The notes below the pieces were generated by a model. That model saw only the letters and a list, made by a program, of their open reading frames with translations, searched no databases and had not been told where the DNA came from. A DNA stretch of 64,000 nucleotides from an uncultured Clostridia bacterium (GTDB lineage Bacteria > Bacillota_I > Bacilli_A > RF39 > UBA660): NCBI GenBank assembly GCA_947165135.1, contig CAMUZE010000003.1:26370-90369 (forward strand), in the 5' to 3' direction. Positions 8,835-57,008 of the stretch are shown piece by piece (positions within the stretch are counted from its first letter, which is position 1; the number at the start of each line of letters is the position of its first letter). The translations under genes were made by a program, and so were the position numbers.

Positions 8835-8861
8835 TGTACATGTCGAAAGGAATGTATATTT

Positions 8862-9956
8862 ATGAAAGTAGTAGTAGGTATGAGTGGTGGAGTAGATTCT
8901 GCAGTAGCAGCACTTCTTTTAAAACAACAAGGATATGAAGTTGTTGGATTATTTATGAAAAACTGGGATTCTAACATAAATAATGATAAAGAAGGTATTA
9001 CTGATGGTGTTTGTCCTCAAGAATTAGATTATAGAGATGCTCAAAATGTCTGTGATGAAATAGGTATCCCTTTATATAGGGTAGATTTTATTAAAGAATA
9101 TTGGGATGATGTATTTAAATATTTCTTAAGTGAACTTGAAAAGGGTAGAACTCCTAATCCTGATATTATGTGCAATAAATATATTAAATTCGATAAATTT
9201 AAAAAAGAAGCTAAAAAATTGGGTGCAGATAAAATTGCTACTGGTCACTATGCTCGCATTGAAGGAAATAAATTATTAAGAGGGGTAGACAATAATAAAG
9301 ATCAAACTTATTTTTTAAGTCAAGTTACTCCAGAACAGTTAAAAGACGTAATGTTTCCAATAGGACATTTAAATAAAAGTGAAGTGCGTGAAATAGCTCG
9401 TAAAAATCATATTCCTGTTGCAGAAAAGAAAGATTCTACTGGTATATGTTTTATTGGTGAAAGAAATTATCAAAAATTTGTTGCTAATTACTTAAAAGGT
9501 AAAAAAGGTGACATTATAGATGTAGAAACTGGAAATAAAGTAGGGGAGCATAATGGACTTATGAATTACACTATTGGTCAAAGACGTAATGTAGGCCTTT
9601 CTGGTGATGCAAAAAGACATTATGTTTGTGGTAAAGACTCTAAAACTAATACATTATATGTAGCATATGGTGATGACTCTAAATATCTATTATCAGATGA
9701 AGCAATTATTGAAGATATAAATCATATTTCAGATAAATGTCCTACATTTGCAACAGCTAAATTTAGATACAGAAGTGAAGATATACCTGTTACTATAGAA
9801 TATCTAGATAATAACGAAATTAAAGTAAAGTATACTGATGGTAAAGCAGTAACTCCTGGACAAGCATGCGTTATATATTTAGGCGAAGAATGCATTATGG
9901 GTGGTATAATTAAACAAGTATTTAAAGATAATAAAGAATTATGGTATTTGAAGTAG
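8862..9956 (+). CDS. mnmA: tRNA-specific 2-thiouridylase
   Basis: [65 protein letters not shown]. Confidence 0.97.
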
Positions 9957-9963
9957 CAAAATC

Positions 9964-9992
9964 TTGAAAAATAAGCGAATTTATGGTATAAT
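9964..9992 (+). promoter_or_regulatory. sigma-A-type promoter
   Basis: TTGAAA-17 nt-TATAAT immediately upstream of the structured leader. Confidence 0.7.
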
Positions 9993-9997
9993 TAACA

Positions 9998-10108
9998 TTG
10001 TTGAAAGGGAGTAGTTCCATCAATAGATGTTATAATTCAATAACACGGTTAATACCTGGATTATATGTAAAGAACAAGACTTTTATAGAAATATAAAAGT
10101 CTTTTTAT
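9998..10108 (+). promoter_or_regulatory. structured leader RNA, candidate yybP-ykoY (Mn2+)-like riboswitch with intrinsic terminator
   Basis: GAAAGGGAGTAG...CAAGACTTTTATA: 5' AAAG/GGAGTAG and 3' CAAGA/CTTT resemble the yybP-ykoY ends; terminator AAGACTTTTATA-GAAA-TATAAAAGTCTTTTTAT overlaps the 3' arm. Confidence 0.45.
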
Positions 10109-10128
10109 ATTTCAGAAAGGAGAAAAAT

Positions 10129-10497
10129 ATGGAAAAGAAAAATATTAGAAAGGCAATAATGACAACTGCTTTAATTGGAGGACTTGCCTTTGCAACACTC
10201 GGATGTAGCTGTAATTATGATATGGTAGATTTTAAATATAATTTTAATAAAGCAATTATATTTAATGGTAATACGGCTACAATAGTTGAAATTGAAAAGT
10301 GGACTGATTATGATGGCGAACAACTTCAAATAGTTACAAAAGATGGAGCAATAATTATAACATCATCTTTTGATACAAAATTAATTAATGATATAAATTC
10401 CACAGTAAAAGCAGATGATATTGCTAGATCAATCTTAGGAGAAGATGCTGAAATTAATTATTTAGGTCAAGGAAAGCAATTAACTCTAACTCCTTAA
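10129..10497 (+). CDS. small lipoprotein
   Basis: Lipobox LAFATLGC; paralogous to 10557..10910. Confidence 0.75.
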   Translation: MEKKNIRKAIMTTALIGGLAFATLGCSCNYDMVDFKYNFNKAIIFNGNTATIVEIEKWTDYDGEQLQIVTKDGAIIITSSFDTKLINDINSTVKADDIARSILGEDAEINYLGQGKQLTLTP

Positions 10498-10556
10498 ATT
10501 GACAAAATATACCAAATATAATACTTACAATTATTTAAAAGAGAGGTGAATATAAT

Positions 10557-10910
10557 ATGAATAATATTAAAAGAAGAAAAGCTATAATGGCAGCTGCTTT
10601 AAGCGGAATGCTTGCTGTTACATCTTTAACAGGATGCGGCAATAATAAACCTAATTATAAAGCAATTATTTTTGAAAATAATAGAGCAACAATAATTGAA
10701 ATTAATCGATATAATTATTCTACAGGAGGTTCTGTGATTTTGTACTTACCAAGCGAAGAAATAATTGTTACTTCGACAATTAATACTAGAATTATTACTG
10801 AAAGAGGTTCTATTACTGCAGAAGATATAGCAAAAAGTATAGCAGGAGATGATATAGTAATTAACTATTTAAATAGTGATGATCAACTATTACTTAAAAA
10901 AGGTAATTAA
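10557..10910 (+). CDS. small lipoprotein, paralogue of the preceding gene
   Basis: Lipobox AVTSLTGC; shared KAIIFxxNxATIIEIxxxxx and AEDIAxSIxGxDxxINYL patterns. Confidence 0.75.
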   Translation: MNNIKRRKAIMAAALSGMLAVTSLTGCGNNKPNYKAIIFENNRATIIEINRYNYSTGGSVILYLPSEEIIVTSTINTRIITERGSITAEDIAKSIAGDDIVINYLNSDDQLLLKKGN

Positions 10911-13263: not shown

Positions 13264-14601
13264 ATGACAAGATACGTAAAAAAAAGAAGATTAAAAAGAT
13301 GGGTAAGAAAATTCTTAAGAAGATCTTTCTTATTATTTATAACTGTATTAACATTATTTATTATATATAAAATTGAATATAAAAAAGTATCAATTAAAGA
13401 TATATATTTAGAAAATAATAAATTATTTGTTAAATTTAATTCTAAAATAAATAAAGATATTATTTGTGCACTATCTAAAGAAGAAAATGATTCATCAGTA
13501 AAAGACACTGAATGGATTAAAATCAAAGATAAAGAATGTGTATTTGATTTTAATGATGATAACTATAATTTATTTATTAAAAAAAATGATAAACTTATAT
13601 ATTCTTCAAATGATAGTAAAGTATTAGATTTTGAATTTGATGATACAACTAAATATTATGCAGTAAATAATGAATATAATTTAAAATATAAATATAAATA
13701 TATTGGAAAAAATCCAAAAATTACATGGAAAAGTTCAAATGATAAAGTTGTTACTGTTGATGCTGGAACAATAAAAACAATTAGTGATGGTGAAGTATCA
13801 ATATTTGCAAATTTCGAAGGTAAATCTAAAACATTAGATATTACCTCTACTTCATTAATTGTTGCTAAGCCTAAAGAATATGATTTAAAGAAAAAATACT
13901 TACCATGTGATAAATATACAGAAGAAGAAAATGATAAATTAGATGAAATATTAGATTATAGAGTACATCAAGTTGGTTTTCAAACTAGAGCCTCAGCAGC
14001 TGAAGCAGCAAGATTCTTAACTTTAGAATTACCATATAGAATAAATTATTTCTATGAAACTGGAAGACTTACTCAAGCAAATAAAATAGATGGTGAAGGA
14101 AGATATTATCATGTTGGCTTATATTTAAATTCATCTAGATATAAAAGTATAAGTAAATCTACTTCTAAACCAAAGACTTGGGGATGTTCAATGTATGACA
14201 CACCTGTTCACAGGAATGTAGATAATGGGCTTGATTGTAGTGGATTCGTTTCGTGGGCTTTATTAAATGCAGGATTTGATGTTGGAGATTTAGGTGCTGG
14301 AGTAAGTAATGTTAAAAATCTATCTCAAAGTTTAGGCGAATTTAAGGATAGTTCTGTATCGTTAGCTAAGAAACTTAAAGTCGGTGATTTACTATTCAGT
14401 TATAAAGCCGGAGGACACATAGGTATATTAGTTGGTATAGATGATAATTATTTCTATACAGCTCAAGCGTTATGGACAGGACAAATTGGTGTTATTATCA
14501 CAAAAGCAACGGCAAGTGAACTAGCAAAAGAATTTCCTAAATTTGTACTTATGGATAAATTCTATAAAGAAGACGGAGAACTTACAAATATGTGGTACTA
14601 A
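13264..14601 (+). CDS. membrane-anchored NlpC/P60-type cell-wall hydrolase with Ig-like (BIG2) domain
   Basis: NGLDCSGFVSWALLNAGFDVGDLG, VGDLLFSYKAGGHIGILVGID; ITWKSSNDKVVTVDAGTIKTISDGEVSIFA Ig-like segment. Confidence 0.88.
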   Translation: MTRYVKKRRLKRWVRKFLRRSFLLFITVLTLFIIYKIEYKKVSIKDIYLENNKLFVKFNSKINKDIICALSKEENDSSVKDTEWIKIKDKECVFDFNDDNYNLFIKKNDKLIYSSNDSKVLDFEFDDTTKYYAVNNEYNLKYKYKYIGKNPKITWKSSNDKVVTVDAGTIKTISDGEVSIFANFEGKSKTLDITSTSLIVAKPKEYDLKKKYLPCDKYTEEENDKLDEILDYRVHQVGFQTRASAAEAARFLTLELPYRINYFYETGRLTQANKIDGEGRYYHVGLYLNSSRYKSISKSTSKPKTWGCSMYDTPVHRNVDNGLDCSGFVSWALLNAGFDVGDLGAGVSNVKNLSQSLGEFKDSSVSLAKKLKVGDLLFSYKAGGHIGILVGIDDNYFYTAQALWTGQIGVIITKATASELAKEFPKFVLMDKFYKEDGELTNMWY

Positions 14602-24789: not shown

Positions 24790-26394
24790 TTAATTTGAAC
24801 CTTCCCAAGTAATACATCCATTAGTAACATTGCTTGTATTATCTTTAACGCATGTTACACCAGATGCCCATTCCCAACCAGGAGTATATGTAGTAAATTC
24901 ACTTGATGATGATTTTCCTTGAATGGTTACGGATGTTAATTGATTATTTGAAAAAGAATTCATTATAATTATAACATTACTTGGTATTGTTACGGATGTT
25001 AATTGATTATTTTGAAATGCACTATTTAATATTGAGATTACATTATTTGATATTGTTATGGTTTTTAATTTATTATTAGAAAAGGCATTATCTCTTATAT
25101 ATTTAACAGTATTTGGCAATATAACAGAAGTTAATTGATTATCAGAAAAGGCATATCTTTCTATGGATGTAATACCACTTGGTATTGTTATGGACGTTAA
25201 TTGATTATTTCGAAATGAATGTTCACCTATTGAAGTGACACTACCTGGTATTGTTACGGATAATAATTGATTATTATAAAAGGCATGTTTTCCGATTGTT
25301 GTAACACTATTTGGAATCACAGGATTTTTATTTACTCCACCATAACTTACTATAGTTGTATTATCAATTCCACTAGATGTTCTTTTATATATAAACGATT
25401 GATTATCAGGCAATTGATTGTTATTAAACGCTGATGCACCTATTGATGTAACACTATTTGGTATTGTAATGGAAGTTAATTTGTTAGCATAAAATGCACT
25501 TGCTCCTATTGAAATGACACTATCTGGTATTGTTAATGATGTTAACAGATTACTCTCAAATGCATGATCTCTTATATATTTAACACTATTTGGTATTGTG
25601 ACTGATGTTAATTTGTTACTTGCAAATGCAGAAATTCCTATTGATGTGACACTATTTGATAATGTTACAGATGATAATTGATTAATTGAAAAAGCTCGTT
25701 CCCCTATTGATGTGACACTATTTGGAATTATTACTGATGTTAATTGATTGCTCGGAAATGCATAACTTTCTATTGTTATAATACTATTTGGAATTATTAC
25801 TGATGTTAATTGATTACTTTCAAAAGCTCTGTAACCTATTGATGTAACTGGTTTCCCTTCAATTGTTGATGGTATAATTACATCTCTAGTGCAACTATTA
25901 TAATCAGTAATTTTAACTTCATCATTTGATATTGTATAAGTAAAACATGATACATCAGTTGGTTCGGCAGAAGTGTCAGTAAGTGATATTACAAGTATAT
26001 TATTAGTATCTAATTCACTTATTGTTTCTACATCTTCTACTTTTGCATTATCAATTGTTCCTTCTTTATTATATTGGTAAGTACCATTTGTTACTTGTAT
26101 TTTTGTAATTACTCCATTACTGTCAGTCACTATTTTATATTTTAAATTTTTTCCACCAGTTATCTTTAACGCTTTAGGACTCCCTGTTATATTAGAATAT
26201 GTTTGAGAAGTACCACCATCAAATAAATACTGCTGTCTAGTAGTTCCTATTAAATTATTTACTTCATTTACAAATGAATTTCTTCTTGCATCATTATACA
26301 TTTTTAATACATTTGGAAGTGCTATTATAACTAGTATTGCTAAAATTGCTATTACTGCTAGTAATTCTACTAATGTAAAGCCAAGTTTTTTCAT
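24790..26394 (-). CDS. type IV pilin-like N-terminus fused to BspA-type leucine-rich repeats
   Basis: MKKLGFTLVELLAVIAILAILVIIALP prepilin motif; many copies of NQLTSVTIPNSVTSIGxxAFxx. Confidence 0.9.
   Translation of the reverse strand: MKKLGFTLVELLAVIAILAILVIIALPNVLKMYNDARRNSFVNEVNNLIGTTRQQYLFDGGTSQTYSNITGSPKALKITGGKNLKYKIVTDSNGVITKIQVTNGTYQYNKEGTIDNAKVEDVETISELDTNNILVISLTDTSAEPTDVSCFTYTISNDEVKITDYNSCTRDVIIPSTIEGKPVTSIGYRAFESNQLTSVIIPNSIITIESYAFPSNQLTSVIIPNSVTSIGERAFSINQLSSVTLSNSVTSIGISAFASNKLTSVTIPNSVKYIRDHAFESNLLTSLTIPDSVISIGASAFYANKLTSITIPNSVTSIGASAFNNNQLPDNQSFIYKRTSSGIDNTTIVSYGGVNKNPVIPNSVTTIGKHAFYNNQLLSVTIPGSVTSIGEHSFRNNQLTSITIPSGITSIERYAFSDNQLTSVILPNTVKYIRDNAFSNNKLKTITISNNVISILNSAFQNNQLTSVTIPSNVIIIMNSFSNNQLTSVTIQGKSSSSEFTTYTPGWEWASGVTCVKDNTSNVTNGCITWEGSN
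24900..25860. repeat. ~69-bp coding tandem repeats (23-aa LRR_5 units)
   Basis: Recurrent GATGTTAATTGATTATT...AATGC units. Confidence 0.85.
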
Positions 26395-40536: not shown

Positions 40537-40564
40537 TAAAAAAAGAGTTTTTAAAACTCTTTTA
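40537..40564 (-). terminator. intrinsic terminator after the Cys-rich pilin gene
   Basis: Minus strand AAAAGAGTTTTAAAAACTCTTTTTTT. Confidence 0.75.
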
Positions 40565-41269
40565 ATATAACTCATGAGATGGAGGCGTAATTGGAGTGAT
40601 TGGTTTAATTGATCCACAGAAAGTACACATAGTTGCGCCTTCGTCACTACAAAAATTAACACCACATGGTGTACATGCTTGATTACCAGATACTGTTTTA
40701 TACGTATTAGCAGGACATGGCATACATTTACTAGTTCCACTATCTTCAACTAAATATTTACCTGGTTCACATCCTAAATCAGTTTCACTACCAGATTCAT
40801 ATCTTTCGTATGCTTCTTCTTCAACTTCTAAGATATTAATTATATCCACATCTTCAAGTTCTGAAATTCTGTCTAAATAATCAAGTTCATTTATATCTAA
40901 TTTACTTCCAAATAAACTAACAAATGCTGTTTGGAAAGTACCATCAGTAACATAAAAATTTAATACCTCACCTGAAGTATTAAATTCAATAAAGTAATCT
41001 ATATTCTCTCTTCCACTTAATGAAAGTTGAGTACTTTGACATCCATCACATCTAGCATAAAATATTTCTGCATCACCATTTGTCATTGAATCTAATAGCC
41101 ATTGTTGTAAAGCTGTCTTATAAATATTTTTTGCTTCATTAATAAAACTTGCTTCTTTAGCATCATTATATGTTTTAATAATATTTGGTAGTGCAATAAT
41201 TACTAATATTGCTAGTATTGCTATTACGGCTAATAATTCTACTAGTGTAAATCCCTTTTTATTTTTCAT
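40562..41269 (-). CDS. type IV pilin-like N-terminus fused to Cys-rich (GCC2/GCC3- or TNFR-like) C-terminal module
   Basis: KKGFTLVELLAVIAILAILVIIALPNIIKTYNDA; CEPGKYLVEDSGTSKCMPCPANTYKTVSGNQACTPCGVNFCSDEGATMCTFC. Confidence 0.87.
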   Translation of the reverse strand: MKNKKGFTLVELLAVIAILAILVIIALPNIIKTYNDAKEASFINEAKNIYKTALQQWLLDSMTNGDAEIFYARCDGCQSTQLSLSGRENIDYFIEFNTSGEVLNFYVTDGTFQTAFVSLFGSKLDINELDYLDRISELEDVDIINILEVEEEAYERYESGSETDLGCEPGKYLVEDSGTSKCMPCPANTYKTVSGNQACTPCGVNFCSDEGATMCTFCGSIKPITPITPPSHELY

Positions 41270-49651: not shown

Positions 49652-49681
49652 AAAATAAAAAGAATGTCTCAAGACATTCTT
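49652..49681 (-). terminator. terminator at the 3' end of the fibre locus
   Basis: Minus strand AAGAATGTCT-TG-AGACATTCTTTTTATTTT. Confidence 0.8.
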
Positions 49682-49683
49682 AA

Positions 49684-50823
49684 TTATTTCTCATCTTTTT
49701 CTTTCTTTGTTAATGCAGCTTTATCAAGAGTAAATTTGTATAAAGTTTTGTCATTCGTTACTACAAAGAAACTCAATTCTCCAGGTATAACTTCATAGAA
49801 TAAAATTGGTAATGATAAATTTTCAGCAGCATCAACTAATTCTTCAAATTTTTCAATTTTAATTATATTATCAAATTTAGTTTCGTCAATATTTGTATTT
49901 TCATATGAACCATTTATCACTAGCTTATCATATTCATTAATAAATTTATTTAATGTAATATAATAAATGTTTCTTCTTTTAAATTTAATATATAATCTAA
50001 TACTTGTGATTAATAATAATAAAACTAATCCTAATGACACTAAAGCAACTACAAATAGAAGAATATTACTTACTGTTATTTTGCCCTTCGCAAATAACAA
50101 TCCATTATTATTAATTTCTTCGGTATCAATAGATATTCTAATAGTTTGTTCTGATAATGGAATACTAGCTTGTAATGTCCTATTAATAAACATTTGATCT
50201 TCATTATTTGAATGTTTACCAACAATATTAATATCCATATTAATTACTAATTTACTATAAGCACTAATTCCAAAATCCTTCTTATATCTATTAACTAAGC
50301 TATTATATTCATCATAATCAATAATTAAGTTTTCAGAAATAGTTAAATTATTTGAATTAACTACCTTTACATCTTTCTTAATCAAATCAAATGTCCTTGT
50401 ATATAATGGTTGACTATCACTGTCTTTAGATATTAATAATGTAGCAGTAATTTTATATGCATATGACATGTCTAGATTATCAGTAGCATGTATTTCATAT
50501 CTAAAATCTGGATTAATAGTATTTATGATATTAGCGACATACTCCATGCCTTCACCTAAATACTTTTCTTTATAGTAATTGTTTTGTTTTAAATAAACCT
50601 TATAGTCTACATCACCTTTTTCAACATACTCAACAATTACTTCTTGTTTCTTTAAATCCAATGATTTAATCAATAAAGATTCAGCAAGAGGCAATAATAT
50701 AATGGCAAGAACCATTAAAATTAATAACCACTTTTTAGTATTAAGTATTTTCTTTTTCTGCATTACATACAATTTATCATTGTCACTAATGTAACTTACA
50801 GATCCTTTATCCTTTTTATTCAT
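49684..50823 (-). CDS. DUF5305-like membrane protein
   Basis: N- and C-terminal TM segments, extracellular beta-rich middle domain; next to the SipW-like signal peptidase. Confidence 0.6.
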   Translation of the reverse strand: MNKKDKGSVSYISDNDKLYVMQKKKILNTKKWLLILMVLAIILLPLAESLLIKSLDLKKQEVIVEYVEKGDVDYKVYLKQNNYYKEKYLGEGMEYVANIINTINPDFRYEIHATDNLDMSYAYKITATLLISKDSDSQPLYTRTFDLIKKDVKVVNSNNLTISENLIIDYDEYNSLVNRYKKDFGISAYSKLVINMDINIVGKHSNNEDQMFINRTLQASIPLSEQTIRISIDTEEINNNGLLFAKGKITVSNILLFVVALVSLGLVLLLLITSIRLYIKFKRRNIYYITLNKFINEYDKLVINGSYENTNIDETKFDNIIKIEKFEELVDAAENLSLPILFYEVIPGELSFFVVTNDKTLYKFTLDKAALTKKEKDEK

Positions 50824-50827
50824 TATT

Positions 50828-51967
50828 CTACGCTCCTTTTGATAGTAAATTATGTAACCAAACTGATGGTAATCCTAAATATTTAATTTTATATTCTACT
50901 CTTCCTACTATATCATCTTTGACAACTACCCAACTATCTTCAGCATTGTCTTTATAATCACCTTTTGTTCTGATATAGTAATTATTATTTTTTTCAAGAA
51001 TACTTATTATTCTATGGGTATAAAGGGTATTCTTAACTTTAAACACTAGTACATCACCAACAACAAGTTCAGAAGGATTATCAGCATACCATTTATCTAT
51101 CACAACTATGTCACCGACTTCAATTGTAGGAGACATACTTCCAGATGCAATAGTCGCAACCCAATATCTAAACAAGTTACTGTAAATGCATACTAAGAAA
51201 ATTAAGAATAATACGCATAGAGTAATAAATATTTTAGAACCAATATGTTTATCTCTTGAATCTTTTCTCTCTCTTTTTCTAAAGTAAAAATTAATAAATT
51301 GCATATTAAATAATGGCATTAATATATTCATAATAGATGTTAAATATTCATCATAATTAGGTGTTATAGGAACAATATATTCATATATGCCCAATATCAA
51401 TGTATATACTAATGTAACAGCATATCCATAATTTTTACTATAAATACTCATTACTACATTTTTACTTATACTTGGAATTACAATTAAACAAACAAACTCC
51501 AATAGTACAAAATTATCAACAAAGTCATAAAAACTCATTGAATACATGATATCAATTAATACAAGTACAACAACAGATAAAATTATATTTATCAAATTCT
51601 TTTCACTACAAAATTGATATCTTAATAATTCCATCGGTACAATAATAAGAACTACAGGAATAATGTTCATTAACATACCGAAGATGTTTTTAGTATATGG
51701 AGACCTTACAAATCCACCAATAAAACCAATAGCATATGTTAAGAATAATATAGCTATTGTTATTACAGCAACAGTTATAATTATTTTTTTATTCTTAGCT
51801 ATCTTGTCCTTTTTAAATCCAATTAAGTATATTGACGCACCAAAACCTGCAAATAAAATTAAGCTTAATAAATATTCATTAATTTTAATGCCAAATATAA
51901 TGCATAAAGAAGCAAAAAGGATAAATATTATCTCTAAAAACAATATTTTCTTAGCATTACCCTTCAC
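50828..51967 (-). CDS. SipW-like type I signal peptidase with multi-TM N-terminal region
   Basis: SGSMSPTIEVGDIVVIDKWYADNPSELVVGDVLVFKVKNTLYTHRIISILEKNNNYYIRTKGDYKDNAEDSWVVVKDDIVGRVEYKI. Confidence 0.9.
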   Translation of the reverse strand: MKGNAKKILFLEIIFILFASLCIIFGIKINEYLLSLILFAGFGASIYLIGFKKDKIAKNKKIIITVAVITIAILFLTYAIGFIGGFVRSPYTKNIFGMLMNIIPVVLIIVPMELLRYQFCSEKNLINIILSVVVLVLIDIMYSMSFYDFVDNFVLLEFVCLIVIPSISKNVVMSIYSKNYGYAVTLVYTLILGIYEYIVPITPNYDEYLTSIMNILMPLFNMQFINFYFRKRERKDSRDKHIGSKIFITLCVLFLIFLVCIYSNLFRYWVATIASGSMSPTIEVGDIVVIDKWYADNPSELVVGDVLVFKVKNTLYTHRIISILEKNNNYYIRTKGDYKDNAEDSWVVVKDDIVGRVEYKIKYLGLPSVWLHNLLSKGA

Positions 51968-51979
51968 TTTTTATCCTCC

Positions 51980-52588
51980 TTATCCCATTTGTACTTGCTC
52001 ATATAAAATTACAGCTTCAATATTTGTTATAAGTACATCATTTTTAGGAAGTTCAGATGCATTAATATTATTAGAATAAATCAATGACATCTTTAATTTT
52101 TTATTATTATCTCCTAAAATTTTATCATTTGATGAATATAAAATATCTCCTGGAATTATTTCTTTTCCATCATCATAAGTCAAAGCATATCTGACATGCT
52201 TTAATACATTTCTGCAATCACTGTCAGACCCAATACATGTAGGATTAGTAACTTGAATAGAACTAACCATTGCATTAAATGTTCCTTTATTTTCAACATC
52301 AAATGTATATGATATTGAGTCTCCAGGTGCATAAAATGTTGTTTCAAAATTTGCTATTGTAGTAGCAGATTTTATATATGGAGAACCTTCAGGTTTTGCA
52401 TTACCAGAAATGTTAGGATCGGAAATATTATCAAATACAATTTCCCATTTTTCTCGAGAACCATCTTCTGAATCAGAAAACTGTATATCCAATGTATGAG
52501 TTAATGAAGCATACGCAAAAGAAATGGCAACAATAGATACCATTAAGCATAACATGCCAAACACTCTTACATCTCTAGACCTTTCCAT
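51980..52588 (-). CDS. TasA/CalY-like exported fibre protein, paralogue 3
   Basis: MERSRDVRVFGMLCLMVSIVAISFAYASLTHTL signal; FYAPGDSISYTFDVENKGTFNAMV. Confidence 0.75.
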   Translation of the reverse strand: MERSRDVRVFGMLCLMVSIVAISFAYASLTHTLDIQFSDSEDGSREKWEIVFDNISDPNISGNAKPEGSPYIKSATTIANFETTFYAPGDSISYTFDVENKGTFNAMVSSIQVTNPTCIGSDSDCRNVLKHVRYALTYDDGKEIIPGDILYSSNDKILGDNNKKLKMSLIYSNNINASELPKNDVLITNIEAVILYEQVQMG

Positions 52589-52615
52589 TTTATCTATTCT
52601 CCAATTTAATAATTA

Positions 52616-53221
52616 TTATAATACTGCTGTACCTTCTTGAGTATATGTAAGTGTAATACCAAGGCCACTAACATTTACATCGGCAGTTGGTAATTGTGCA
52701 GCTGTTGTTGTATCTTTATAAGTTAAAACAATTTTTAAATGTCTAACTCCTGTTTTAGCAGCAAGAACAGCATTATCTGCAGCAGTTAATTCAGTATTAG
52801 ATGTTGTATCATATAATTTATATGTTAAATTATTACATACAACACTTGCTTCACTAGTTTTTGTACTTGAACAACTAGGTGTACCTATTGTAAGACCTGT
52901 TAATTTGGCAGCAAAGTTACCAGCATTAACAACATCAAAAGTATAAGATACACTATCGCCAGGTGAAGCTAATTGCACTACATAATCGCCAATACTTGTT
53001 GCACCACTTTTAATTGTAGGTGCTGTGATTTCACTTCCAGTTCCAGTAGTAACTGCAGTACCTAAATTTGCAAAATGTACATCCCATTTAACAGTTTTAA
53101 CAGTACCACTACCATTAATAGTTAATGTTTGAGTAAATCCTGCATATGCAAGAGATACAGCTACTAATGACACAACTAATGCTAAAATACCAAATACTAT
53201 ATAATTTTTAGATTTTTCCAT
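52616..53221 (-). CDS. TasA/CalY-like exported fibre protein, paralogue 2
   Basis: MEKSKNYIVFGILALVVSLVAVSLAYAGFTQTLTINGSGTVKTVKWDVHFANL. Confidence 0.8.
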   Translation of the reverse strand: MEKSKNYIVFGILALVVSLVAVSLAYAGFTQTLTINGSGTVKTVKWDVHFANLGTAVTTGTGSEITAPTIKSGATSIGDYVVQLASPGDSVSYTFDVVNAGNFAAKLTGLTIGTPSCSSTKTSEASVVCNNLTYKLYDTTSNTELTAADNAVLAAKTGVRHLKIVLTYKDTTTAAQLPTADVNVSGLGITLTYTQEGTAVL

Positions 53222-53261
53222 TTTTATCGCCTTTCTAAAGTATAATTAATAATTGATTATA

Positions 53262-53292
53262 ACGGTATACTCCCATAAAGGGAGCATACCGT
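53262..53292 (-). promoter_or_regulatory. intergenic 12-bp-class hairpin between paralogues 1 and 2
   Basis: ACGGTATaCTCCC-ATAAA-GGGAGcATACCGT; no strong U-tract. Confidence 0.65.
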
Positions 53293-53336
53293 ATTATATT
53301 CAAAAATCAATTTATTTTCAGATAACTAACTTAATA

Positions 53337-53927
53337 CTATGGTTGAACATAGTTACCATCTTGAGAATAAGTAAATTGTACACCCAATCCACCGATTGTT
53401 ACATCAGATCCTGGAAGAACTGTACTATCTGCTTTATAAGTTAATGTTAAAACATAAGTTTGAGTTCCAGTATAAGCATCTAATATTGAGTTATCAGCAG
53501 CAGTTATTGCAGTAGAACTTCCTTTTTTAGTTAATGTATAAGTGATTTGATTACATAAGAAGTTTGTATCACCACTACATGTTGGAGTTCCAACAGTAAG
53601 ACCAGTTAACTTAGCATTAAATGATCCAGTATTAACTACATCAAATTCAAAACTTGCAGATTGTCCTGGAGTATTGAATGTTACATTGTAATCACCAATT
53701 TGAGTTGTATTTGATTGAATTACTGGTTCAGTTACCCAACTAGCACCTGTAGATACGCTCTTATTTGTAAGATTAGCAAAATGTACATCCCAACTAGCAG
53801 TTTTAATAGTAGCAGTACCATTGATATTTAGTGTTTGAGTAAATCCTGCGTATGCAAGAGATACAGCAACTAATGATACAACTAATGCAAGTACTCCAAA
53901 TACTACATAATTTCTTGATTTTTCCAT
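53337..53927 (-). CDS. TasA/CalY-like exported fibre protein, paralogue 1 (likely major subunit)
   Basis: MEKSRNYVVFGVLALVVSLVAVSLAYAGFTQTLNINGTATIKTASWDVHFANL; own consensus promoter. Confidence 0.8.
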   Translation of the reverse strand: MEKSRNYVVFGVLALVVSLVAVSLAYAGFTQTLNINGTATIKTASWDVHFANLTNKSVSTGASWVTEPVIQSNTTQIGDYNVTFNTPGQSASFEFDVVNTGSFNAKLTGLTVGTPTCSGDTNFLCNQITYTLTKKGSSTAITAADNSILDAYTGTQTYVLTLTYKADSTVLPGSDVTIGGLGVQFTYSQDGNYVQP

Positions 53928-54019
53928 CTTAAATCTCCCTTCTGTATATTTTGTAAATTACGCAACAATACACACTACTTTGCTTAGTGTCTATTATCTA
54001 TAACCTACTTTACTATTTA

Positions 54020-54048
54020 ATTATAATATTTATAGAATTTTATGTCAA
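54020..54048 (-). promoter_or_regulatory. perfect-consensus sigma-A promoter of TasA-like paralogue 1
   Basis: TTGACA-17 nt-TATAAT on the minus strand. Confidence 0.85.
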
Positions 54049-54055
54049 TAAATTA

Positions 54056-54820
54056 TCACAAAATTTCATTAGATAATTGCATAATATTTATGAAATTATT
54101 TATATATAAAATTGATAAAGCACCTATAATTAAAAATGGACCAAATGGTATAATTCCGTCTTTATTTTTTCTTATATAGAATAATGAGAATAATAATCCA
54201 GTAATAGATGCTATAAATAATGCAAAAAATGAGTTATACATTCCTATAGCAAGAGCAATAACCGCCATTAATTTAATATCTCCATCGCCTAAAGATTCTT
54301 TCTTAAATACCATATTTCCAATTAATTTAATTATATACATAAATCCAAACATAACAGCAGCAGACAATATGTACTTAAATGCATCTGTTTTTAAAAATGT
54401 AAACTGAAATATTATTAATAATATAGTACTAATTACAATTACTCTATCGGATATATAATAATATAAGAAATCACTAACTATTGTAACTATTAACACACAA
54501 GTAAGAATGGTAGATATATAAAACTTTAATGTAAATCCAAATACTAAATAATTTATTACAAACAGAACAGCAGATAATAATTCAGTTAAAAAATATATTG
54601 AATTTATCTTTTTATGACAATAAGCACATTTTCCTTTTAAAAAAGTATATGAAAGAAGCGGTATATTCATATACCATTTTAATTCTTTCTTACAATTTTC
54701 ACAGTAACTATTAGGATAAGTAGTTTTTATTTTATTTGGAATTCTATACCCCATACATCCTAAAAAACTTCCTATAATAGATCCTAATATAAACAATATA
54801 ATATAAATAAGTATTTCCAT
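54056..54820 (-). CDS. prepilin peptidase (A24 family)
   Basis: GSIIGSFLGCMGYRIP; YCENC...CAYCH zinc motif; SDFLYYYISD and LGDGDIKLMAVIAL aspartates; start at MEILIYI. Confidence 0.93.
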   Translation of the reverse strand: MEILIYIILFILGSIIGSFLGCMGYRIPNKIKTTYPNSYCENCKKELKWYMNIPLLSYTFLKGKCAYCHKKINSIYFLTELLSAVLFVINYLVFGFTLKFYISTILTCVLIVTIVSDFLYYYISDRVIVISTILLIIFQFTFLKTDAFKYILSAAVMFGFMYIIKLIGNMVFKKESLGDGDIKLMAVIALAIGMYNSFFALFIASITGLLFSLFYIRKNKDGIIPFGPFLIIGALSILYINNFINIMQLSNEIL

Positions 54821-54836
54821 TTTTCCCCCTATACAT

Positions 54837-56651
54837 CTATTTAATTGTTTGATAAATTCCAAACATTGGAACAACTATAGCAACAAGTATAAATCCAACA
54901 ATAACTGCTAAGAAAACAATCATAATTGGTTCAATAAAGGTTTTAATTTGATTAACGCTATTTCTTTCTAGTTTATGATAATAGTCTCCAACTTTATCAA
55001 GCATCTCAGCAAGTTCTCCTGTTGATTCACCTGTCAATATCATATAATAAGCAACTTCTGGTACTGCCCAATGATCTTTAAAAGATACACTCATTTTTTC
55101 ACCTTTAAGTAAATTGTTAATTGTTTTAAGCATTATTGCTTTATATATTTCATTACTAGTAATTTTAGCAAGAATATCTATACTATCAGTTAACAAAACA
55201 TTATTCTTATTTAAAGTAGCAAAAGTTCTTGCAAATAATGCCATTTCTTTAGAAATAATTAAATTTCCAACAACAGGTAATTTCATAAATAATGTTTGAT
55301 TTAACGTTCTAAATAATTTAATTTTCTTATATGCAAGAATATATAGAGAAATAACAAGAACAATAAATCCAATAATATTCATATATTTTGTTTTAATATA
55401 TGCTGAAATATTCAGTGTAATTTGTGTAACAGGATTCAATTCTGCCTGCATAGATTCATATACACCTACAAATTGAGGAACTATATATACAAGCATAAAT
55501 ACTACAATACCTATTGCAAATATTAATACTATTGATGGATATGTAAGTGCACTTATAATTGCCTTTTTAGTATCTTCTATTTCTTGATAATAATTACTCA
55601 TTTCATCAAGAGTATCCTCAATATTACCTATCATTTCAGCTGATTTAATCATATTAACAAGTAATGCTGGAAAAGAGTTTCCTTGTTTTTTTAATGCTTC
55701 ACTAAATGGTTCTCCCATTGTAAGTTCATATATAATTGAATCATATATACCTTTATATTTTCTTCTTTTATCTTGCTTTGCTAAAACTTTGACAGCATCT
55801 GTAAGAGGAATACCACTTCTAACATAAGTGGATATTTGAGCAAGCCAGAATATTAAATCTTTATTCTTCATTCTTCTCTTAATACTAGATGATTCAGTAT
55901 GAAAGAAATTAATTGCCCAAGATGTATTTATTTCATATACTGTCATACCTTTATCAATCAAATATGAATAAACATCTAATTTAGATTGAGCAGCAAAATA
56001 TCCCTCTTCTAATACACCGTCTTTATTCCTAGCTATATATTTATATGTCTTCTTTTCATTTGTTTTAACAACATCATCACTATTAGGATCTATTGACATA
56101 ACTTTAAGACTTGCTTCTTTTTTGGCTTGGGCTGCTTTAACAGATGGAATCTCATTATATTTTTTATTAATATATTCTCTTACTGTTTGAGTAAATGTTT
56201 TACCACTTTCTTGCTCTGCAGCACTTTTCTTTTTAATCTTATTTATTGATTCTTTGGTTTTATAATATGTACTAATGATTGGTTTGCTAAATTTTCTATA
56301 TAAATAGGTTGGAAAACCTATAAATAATAATTCCAAAACGTATGCAGTTCCATTATAAAATGCTTTAAATAATTCATATATCTCTATAAAAGGTCTTCTA
56401 AAAAGAATTTTATATATTGCTTTAAAAACTAAAAAGATATAAGAAAAAAAAGATAAAATAAAAGAAAAGAAAAAATCAAATACTTTAAATAATGGATTAC
56501 TAGATTTCTTAGTAGTTACATTTTCACTAGCCTCTACTGCTTTTGCCTGCTTTGCAGTAGGAGAACTAGTATTATTAGTTACATTAACCGTATTTGTCTT
56601 TTCAGTCTTATTTTGTTTTTCTACTTCTAATGCTGCACTTTTTTGACCCAT
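54837..56651 (-). CDS. GspF/PilC-type inner-membrane assembly protein with ~200-aa N-terminal extension
   Basis: GVLEEGYFAAQSKLDVYSYLIDKGMTVYEI; LAQISTYVRSGIPLTDAVKVLAKQ; FARTFATLNKNNVLLTDSIDILAKI; IEPIMIVFLAVIVGFILVAIVVPMF. Confidence 0.92.
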   Translation of the reverse strand: MGQKSAALEVEKQNKTEKTNTVNVTNNTSSPTAKQAKAVEASENVTTKKSSNPLFKVFDFFFSFILSFFSYIFLVFKAIYKILFRRPFIEIYELFKAFYNGTAYVLELLFIGFPTYLYRKFSKPIISTYYKTKESINKIKKKSAAEQESGKTFTQTVREYINKKYNEIPSVKAAQAKKEASLKVMSIDPNSDDVVKTNEKKTYKYIARNKDGVLEEGYFAAQSKLDVYSYLIDKGMTVYEINTSWAINFFHTESSSIKRRMKNKDLIFWLAQISTYVRSGIPLTDAVKVLAKQDKRRKYKGIYDSIIYELTMGEPFSEALKKQGNSFPALLVNMIKSAEMIGNIEDTLDEMSNYYQEIEDTKKAIISALTYPSIVLIFAIGIVVFMLVYIVPQFVGVYESMQAELNPVTQITLNISAYIKTKYMNIIGFIVLVISLYILAYKKIKLFRTLNQTLFMKLPVVGNLIISKEMALFARTFATLNKNNVLLTDSIDILAKITSNEIYKAIMLKTINNLLKGEKMSVSFKDHWAVPEVAYYMILTGESTGELAEMLDKVGDYYHKLERNSVNQIKTFIEPIMIVFLAVIVGFILVAIVVPMFGIYQTIK

Positions 56652-56753: not shown

Positions 56754-57008
56754 GTGATAATTCAAATGAATTTAAGTATACTAGAATTATTCAAAAAGCT
56801 TAGTTTATCAAATATAATTTCTAATACAAATAAAACACTTGGAATTATTAAAAAAACTATACCAGTATATAGACAAGTTAAACCTTATATGACACATGAA
56901 AAATCACTATTTAAAAAAGATGATTCTAACATAATAAAAGAAAGTAAGATATTAAAAGATGAACATACAAGAACAAATTTTAATGATACTCTTACTTTCT
57001 TTAAATAA
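56754..57008 (+). CDS. small YqfQ/VrrA-like protein
   Basis: ISNTNKTLGIIKKTIPVYRQVKPYM resembles the YqfQ pattern; coding not certain. Confidence 0.45.
   Translation: MIIQMNLSILELFKKLSLSNIISNTNKTLGIIKKTIPVYRQVKPYMTHEKSLFKKDDSNIIKESKILKDEHTRTNFNDTLTFFK

Follow-up and report, generated by a model that had tools for sequence, protein, structure and literature searches.

The seven genes described here lie on the minus strand of a 64-kb stretch of DNA (the window, whose coordinates are used throughout), which is carried by contig C3 of a draft genome (1.24 Mb, 43 contigs). They comprise a putative operon for a TasA/AbpX-type surface fibre and, directly beside it, two genes of type IV pilus character, pilC and pilD. 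The nearest named relatives of the source genome are metagenome-assembled gut Bacilli; the closest one was obtained from goat omasum and carries a DUF5305 protein 98% identical to that of the window. The following features were identified, listed in the direction of transcription:

54837-56651 (-): PilC/GspF-type inner-membrane platform protein, 604 amino acids (aa); T2SSF matched twice, 181 bits (cut-off 25.2)
54056-54820 (-): A24 prepilin peptidase (PilD); A24_N_bact 99.8 bits, Peptidase_A24 57 bits
54020-54048 (-): sigma-70-type promoter, TTGACA-17-TATAAT; 12 of 12 consensus positions
53337-53927 (-): putative TasA/AbpX-like fibre subunit 1, 196 aa; profile match to AbpX, AlphaFold2 (AF2) model
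52616-53221 (-): putative TasA/AbpX-like fibre subunit 2, 201 aa; 56% identical to subunit 1
51980-52588 (-): putative TasA/AbpX-like fibre subunit 3, 202 aa, divergent; 35% identical to subunit 1
50828-51967 (-): SipW-type signal peptidase of the endoplasmic reticulum (ER)/archaeal type (S26B), 379 aa; TIGR02228 69.7 bits (cut-off 51.85), SGSMSPT at residues 275-281
49684-50823 (-): DUF5305 membrane protein; PF17231, 54 bits (cut-off 29)
49660-49681 (-): bidirectional hairpin terminator 3' of the DUF5305 gene; 9-bp stem and U-tract

A preliminary description of the locus had named the seven genes, grouped the TasA-like, SipW-type and DUF5305 genes together and placed a terminator at 49.66 kb, and all of this was borne out. 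The gene identities were recovered in profile searches with hidden Markov models, in which T2SSF, A24, DUF5305 and TIGR02228 were matched and the Peptidase_M73 cut-off was not reached by the three exported proteins. The same description had also proposed that the pilus and fibre genes form a linked system, either as two co-regulated appendages or as one hybrid, and had named conservation of the neighbourhood among relatives as the test; this part was not supported by the comparison given below, although two separate appendages may be co-regulated in the few genomes that share the arrangement. For pilD, the ATG at 54820 was preferred as the start over the TTG at 54874.

The seven genes are split into two units by the promoter between pilD and the first subunit gene (54048-54020), and the last five genes form a separate unit. 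Promoter-like sites as such prove little, since the scan of the region returned 63 sites against 64.4 expected and thus no excess. The site at 54048-54020 was, however, the only one in the scan to match the consensus at all 12 positions, with 17-bp spacing and in the right orientation for the subunit genes. It is kept in the relatives that share the arrangement (12/12 in L089, 11/12 in L083), and in L083 it stands at the aligned place even though the DUF5305 protein there is only 53% identical to that of the window. In L081, where two subunit genes are left, the best site scored 10/12. No terminator was detected in the interval that separates pilD from the first subunit gene.

The three exported proteins were compared with the PDB using a subunit profile built from 32 relatives (alignment A1). 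The bundling pilin AbpX of Pyrodictium abyssi was recovered (9sj2, E = 2.6e-6; 9rhp, E = 7.7e-5) and nothing else fell below 0.1, so that AbpX is the closest solved relative by sequence; it is archaeal, unlike the bacterial subunits of the window. ABPx of P. abyssi forms a donor-strand-exchanged fibre, like TasA and ABP (PMC11952670), and through this match the subunits are related in sequence to a solved member of the donor-strand fibres. The AF2 model of subunit 1 (mean predicted local distance difference test [pLDDT] score 89.8) consists of a signal helix (residues 3-29) and a beta-sandwich (48-190), which are joined by an unpaired segment with no secondary structure and lower confidence (30-47). 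The donor strand of TasA comprises residues 28-38 (PMC9674648). An unpaired N-terminal segment in the model is what a TasA-type donor strand would require, and residues 30-47 are a candidate for this function. In subunits 1 and 2 the signal peptide ends in AYA and is followed by GF; signal peptides with an aromatic second mature residue are reportedly cleaved poorly by Escherichia coli LepB and accepted by SipW (PMC10269814). The name TasA-like, as used here, is a putative one given on the profile match and on this predicted architecture.

Membership of the signal peptidase in the SipW-type (S26B) group is indicated by the TIGR02228 match over the cut-off, by the catalytic Ser-His pair (Ser277 and His318, invariant in ten relatives; alignment A3) and by the resemblance of the last 130 residues to SEC11A and SEC11C (E = 1.6e-19, profile residues 239-375). 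The N-terminal 240 residues have the look of a polytopic membrane region, and no relative of this region was detected.

The product of the last gene was described earlier as a two-helix, beta-rich, DUF5305-like protein, and it is a DUF5305 protein (PF17231) with two membrane helices around a beta-rich ectodomain. The topology was read from the AF2 model (mean pLDDT 82.9) together with the sequence: transmembrane helix 29-54, ectodomain 61-246, transmembrane helix 254-284 and a cytosolic alpha/beta domain at 286-378. No solved relative was found in the profile search against the PDB, and the fold search gave low TM-scores only, the best match being the luminal domain of TMEM106B (E = 8e-4, TM-score 0.13). 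The literature search, which did not extend to subscription papers, found no paper on DUF5305.

Gene neighbourhoods were counted for 49 DUF5305 genes, whose loci were taken from the genome searches and from a scan of the named collection with five closer DUF5305 sequences, with known duplicates removed. A SipW-type gene lay on the same strand within 150 bp of DUF5305 in 43 of the 49 (median gap 7 bp), and several of the exceptions sit at contig ends. A TasA-like gene was present within 6 kb in 45/49, and PilC within 10 kb in 3/49, all from one genus. The 30 named loci came from gut Bacilli and some Clostridia (including Oscillospiraceae) and had the same gene order wherever it could be read. 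Subunit-like proteins were likewise encoded together with the peptidase and DUF5305 at two loci from other Bacilli (L142 and L143). In a further Bacilli locus (L141), a short exported protein is encoded between the peptidase and DUF5305, and DUF5305 is fused to an MshEN domain (8837-10774, + strand; PF05157, 39.2 bits, cut-off 23.1). MshEN is the type of N-terminal domain seen in ATPases of type IV pili and type II secretion. A prepilin-like gene was observed at 13519-14328 of the same locus. In many modules (L189, L193, L197, L202, L208-L210 and others) the DUF5305 gene is followed by a gene for a larger protein of 460-1266 aa with a TasA-like start; such a protein is absent from the window and is possibly a tip or adhesin subunit.

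DUF5305 is also annotated on haloarchaeal plasmids, where it stands beside or near a gene annotated as signal peptidase I, an archaeal-type enzyme, in five of six cases. The two genes adjoin in the plasmids of Halostagnicola, Natrialba and Halocatena, are one gene apart in Halobaculum and lie within 5 kb in Haloferax larsenii; in H. mediterranei no signal peptidase was annotated near DUF5305 in the stretch read. These loci differ from the bacterial ones in that the gene order varies and the subunit profile had no match among their proteins, so only the pairing of peptidase and DUF5305 is seen in archaea. A tblastn search of the plasmids with the DUF5305 protein of the window found nothing. One contig with 60% GC and haloarchaeal-looking genes (L140, G238:C49) was recovered from a genome assigned to the class Bacilli; it is most likely misplaced haloarchaeal DNA, a binning error, and was therefore used only as a pointer to the archaeal DUF5305 records.

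The relation of the fibre genes to pilC and pilD was surveyed in a sample of the order (146 genomes). T2SSF (PilC-type) proteins were detected in 138 of these genomes and DUF5305 over the cut-off in 57. Among the matches listed, 54 genomes had both, and the pair lay on one contig in five; the distance was below 10 kb in one genome of the 54, the source genome itself, and the next distance was 17.8 kb, fragmented contigs hiding some of the distances. In other genera, 20 PilC loci were inspected, the majority of them with flanks of several kb, and genes for subunits, SipW or DUF5305 were seen at none. Within the genus, PilC was found in 18/18 genomes, and the order lepA-pilC-pilD wherever the contig was long enough. 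After pilD, the full fibre cassette followed in three genomes (the source genome, L089 and L083) and two subunit genes alone in one (L081), whereas 12 of the 16 readable genomes had other genes, isoleucyl-tRNA synthetase (ileS) in several; two of the 18 were unreadable. TasA-like candidates upstream of lepA (L090-L092, L094 and L096; 16-27 bits) look like a different exported family and were not counted. Conversely, two genomes (G143 and G091) had DUF5305 over the cut-off and no detectable T2SSF protein; G143 carries a full fibre module (L108), and T2SSF went undetected in all three sampled members of its genus. From these counts and from the DUF5305 modules lacking PilC it follows that the pilus and fibre genes are separable and usually separate. 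The fibre set is a unit of its own, to which PilC and PilD are neighbours, and the adjacency is limited to one part of one genus. The linkage to a type IV pilus, which had made the locus attractive in the preliminary description, is local.

The partners of PilC and PilD were located elsewhere in the genome. As described earlier, no PilB/PilT-type ATPase is encoded in the window; an absence of PilB from the genome was rejected, since contig C17 carries one PilB and contig C5 a Tad-type CpaF. Thirteen prepilin N-termini are scattered over the genome, two of them inside the window. The Tad-type set on C5, with CpaF, TadB and TadC named from their translations, was observed at L007 (7595-12459, + strand) with two CpaB-like proteins and a small pilin-like protein. 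Because the only A24 peptidase found in the genome is that at 54056-54820, the prepilins are probably the substrates of PilD, and the Tad pilins perhaps too; nothing ties PilD to the TasA-like subunits. The genome thus holds the components of a minimal type IV pilus or ComG-type machine (PilB, PilC, PilD and prepilins), with the difference that the genes are dispersed and are not part of the fibre unit. Two proteins with prepilin-type N-termini were observed on the minus strand of the window. The one at 24790-26394 (534 aa) continues into a match to a leucine-rich-repeat adhesin (NF047961) and may be an adhesin that the pilus machine displays. The other, at 40562-41269 (235 aa), scored higher (39.3 bits) than any other prepilin N-terminus in the genome and lies far from pilC-pilD.

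Taken together, the stretch at 49660-54048 is probably an operon of its own, with a strong promoter, that encodes a TasA/AbpX-type surface fibre and came to lie beside pilC-pilD by chance of genome rearrangement. After export of the subunits by the Sec pathway, the SipW-type enzyme would cut them behind A-x-A, the second residue that follows being hydrophobic and usually aromatic. The N-terminal segment freed in this way (about residues 28-40) would fill the groove of the next subunit and so build a donor-strand fibre. DUF5305, held by its two membrane helices, would most likely act as an anchor or nucleator at the fibre base, possibly in complex with the peptidase, and its cytosolic domain would have a reporting or regulatory function. 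PilC and PilD would belong to the separate, dispersed type IV pilus-like machine. The operon resembles tapA-sipW-tasA of Bacillus subtilis and sipW-tasA, capP and calY of B. cereus in its subunits, which are small exported beta-sandwich proteins whose signal peptide is of a special kind, in the dedicated SipW-type peptidase encoded alongside and in the presumed donor-strand assembly. It differs in having a two-helix DUF5305 protein in place of TapA or CapP, three tandem subunits that stay below the Peptidase_M73 cut-off, and a peptidase of 379 aa whose N-terminal membrane domain is large. It would thus represent the TasA/AbpX kind in variant form, marked by a conserved DUF5305 component whose role is most likely analogous to those of TapA and CapP. 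Known TasA-type systems need a helper for the start or anchoring of the fibre (PMC10151520, PMC13082335), and the role of anchor or nucleator is ranked first because DUF5305 is the conserved extra gene here.

Several results weigh against this interpretation. The window proteins, which fell short of the cut-off for Peptidase_M73 (TasA/camelysin, PF12389), are joined in this by the rest of their own genome, where no match was found; in favour of the interpretation, two subunits of DUF5305 modules in relatives touched the family weakly (G011, E = 2.9e-4; G005, E = 8.3e-4). The fold search with the subunit gave nothing at E <= 0.001 and no solved TasA, the pilins CfaB, PapK and FimI appearing weakly. 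The source genome encodes five TIGR02228 signal peptidases, so the one encoded here need not be the exclusive partner of these subunits. The role of DUF5305 is inferred, as its ectodomain has no informative solved relative, and the assembly is in draft form, with 90.8% completeness and 5.2% contamination. The fold search result and the high divergence of the subunits (mean column identity 29%, alignment A1) would also suit monomeric cell-surface proteins with a SipW-type signal, which would not be fibre subunits. The match to AbpX at E = 2.6e-6, the tandem paralogues and the N-terminal segment left unpaired in a high-confidence model speak for fibre subunits instead and make monomers unlikely.

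The most serious rival concerns DUF5305, as no other signal in the data is as strong as its position next to the peptidase. DUF5305 may be an accessory subunit of the SipW-type peptidase that presents substrates or controls activity, with the exported proteins as mere cargo. It is tied to the peptidase more consistently than to a fixed place relative to the subunits, a signal peptidase is what recurs beside it on haloarchaeal plasmids, and SEC11, which the peptidase resembles, is an ER enzyme that works in a complex. B. subtilis SipW, on the other hand, works with no DUF5305 partner: DUF5305 was found in none of 14 control genomes, B. subtilis with its TIGR02228 match among them, and the source genome has two DUF5305 genes for its five TIGR02228 enzymes. 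We consider an accessory subunit a real possibility, though not the favoured one, and the two roles are not mutually exclusive. A deliberate co-location and co-regulation of a type IV pilus-like machine and a TasA-like fibre in the genus subgroup is quite unlikely. The arrangement has persisted, being kept in three species with DUF5305 proteins down to 53% identical, and the seven genes share one strand with no terminator detected after pilD; against this stand the separate conserved promoter, the other genes that follow pilD in most readable genus members, the one that keeps only two subunit genes, and the lack of fibre genes at all 20 PilC loci of other genera. A single hybrid fibre, in which PilC and PilD act on the TasA-like subunits or both subunit types co-assemble, could draw on the physical adjacency in three genomes and on the DUF5305-MshEN fusion in another Bacilli genome. 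It is very improbable and was rejected on neighbourhood, promoter and motif evidence: the three exported proteins have no GFxxxE motif of class III prepilins and no N_methyl or TIGR02532 match, the fibre module occurs in two genomes with PilC undetected, and the adjacency is absent elsewhere.

With the surface-fibre operon as the preferred interpretation, the conserved neighbour of the peptidase becomes a concrete candidate for starting or holding fibres at the cell, which would be a first functional lead for DUF5305, and surface fibres would be attributed to uncultured gut Bacilli with small genomes. More tentatively, DUF5305 might be the missing membrane platform, widely shared, of donor-strand fibres: paired with an ER/archaeal-type signal peptidase, it would make up a machine of two proteins by which TasA/AbpX-like fibres are processed, nucleated and anchored in gut Bacilli, Clostridia and archaea, the cytosolic domain having gained MshEN, potentially cyclic-di-GMP-binding, in one lineage.

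Two minor observations were made at the upstream end of the locus. PilC (54837-56651, - strand) has an N-terminal extension of about 200 residues, and its open-frame lengths across the order range from about 424 to 870 aa. A small open reading frame (84 aa, 56754-57008, + strand) lies between lepA and pilC in the opposite orientation, and one of similar size recurs at this place in most members of the genus.

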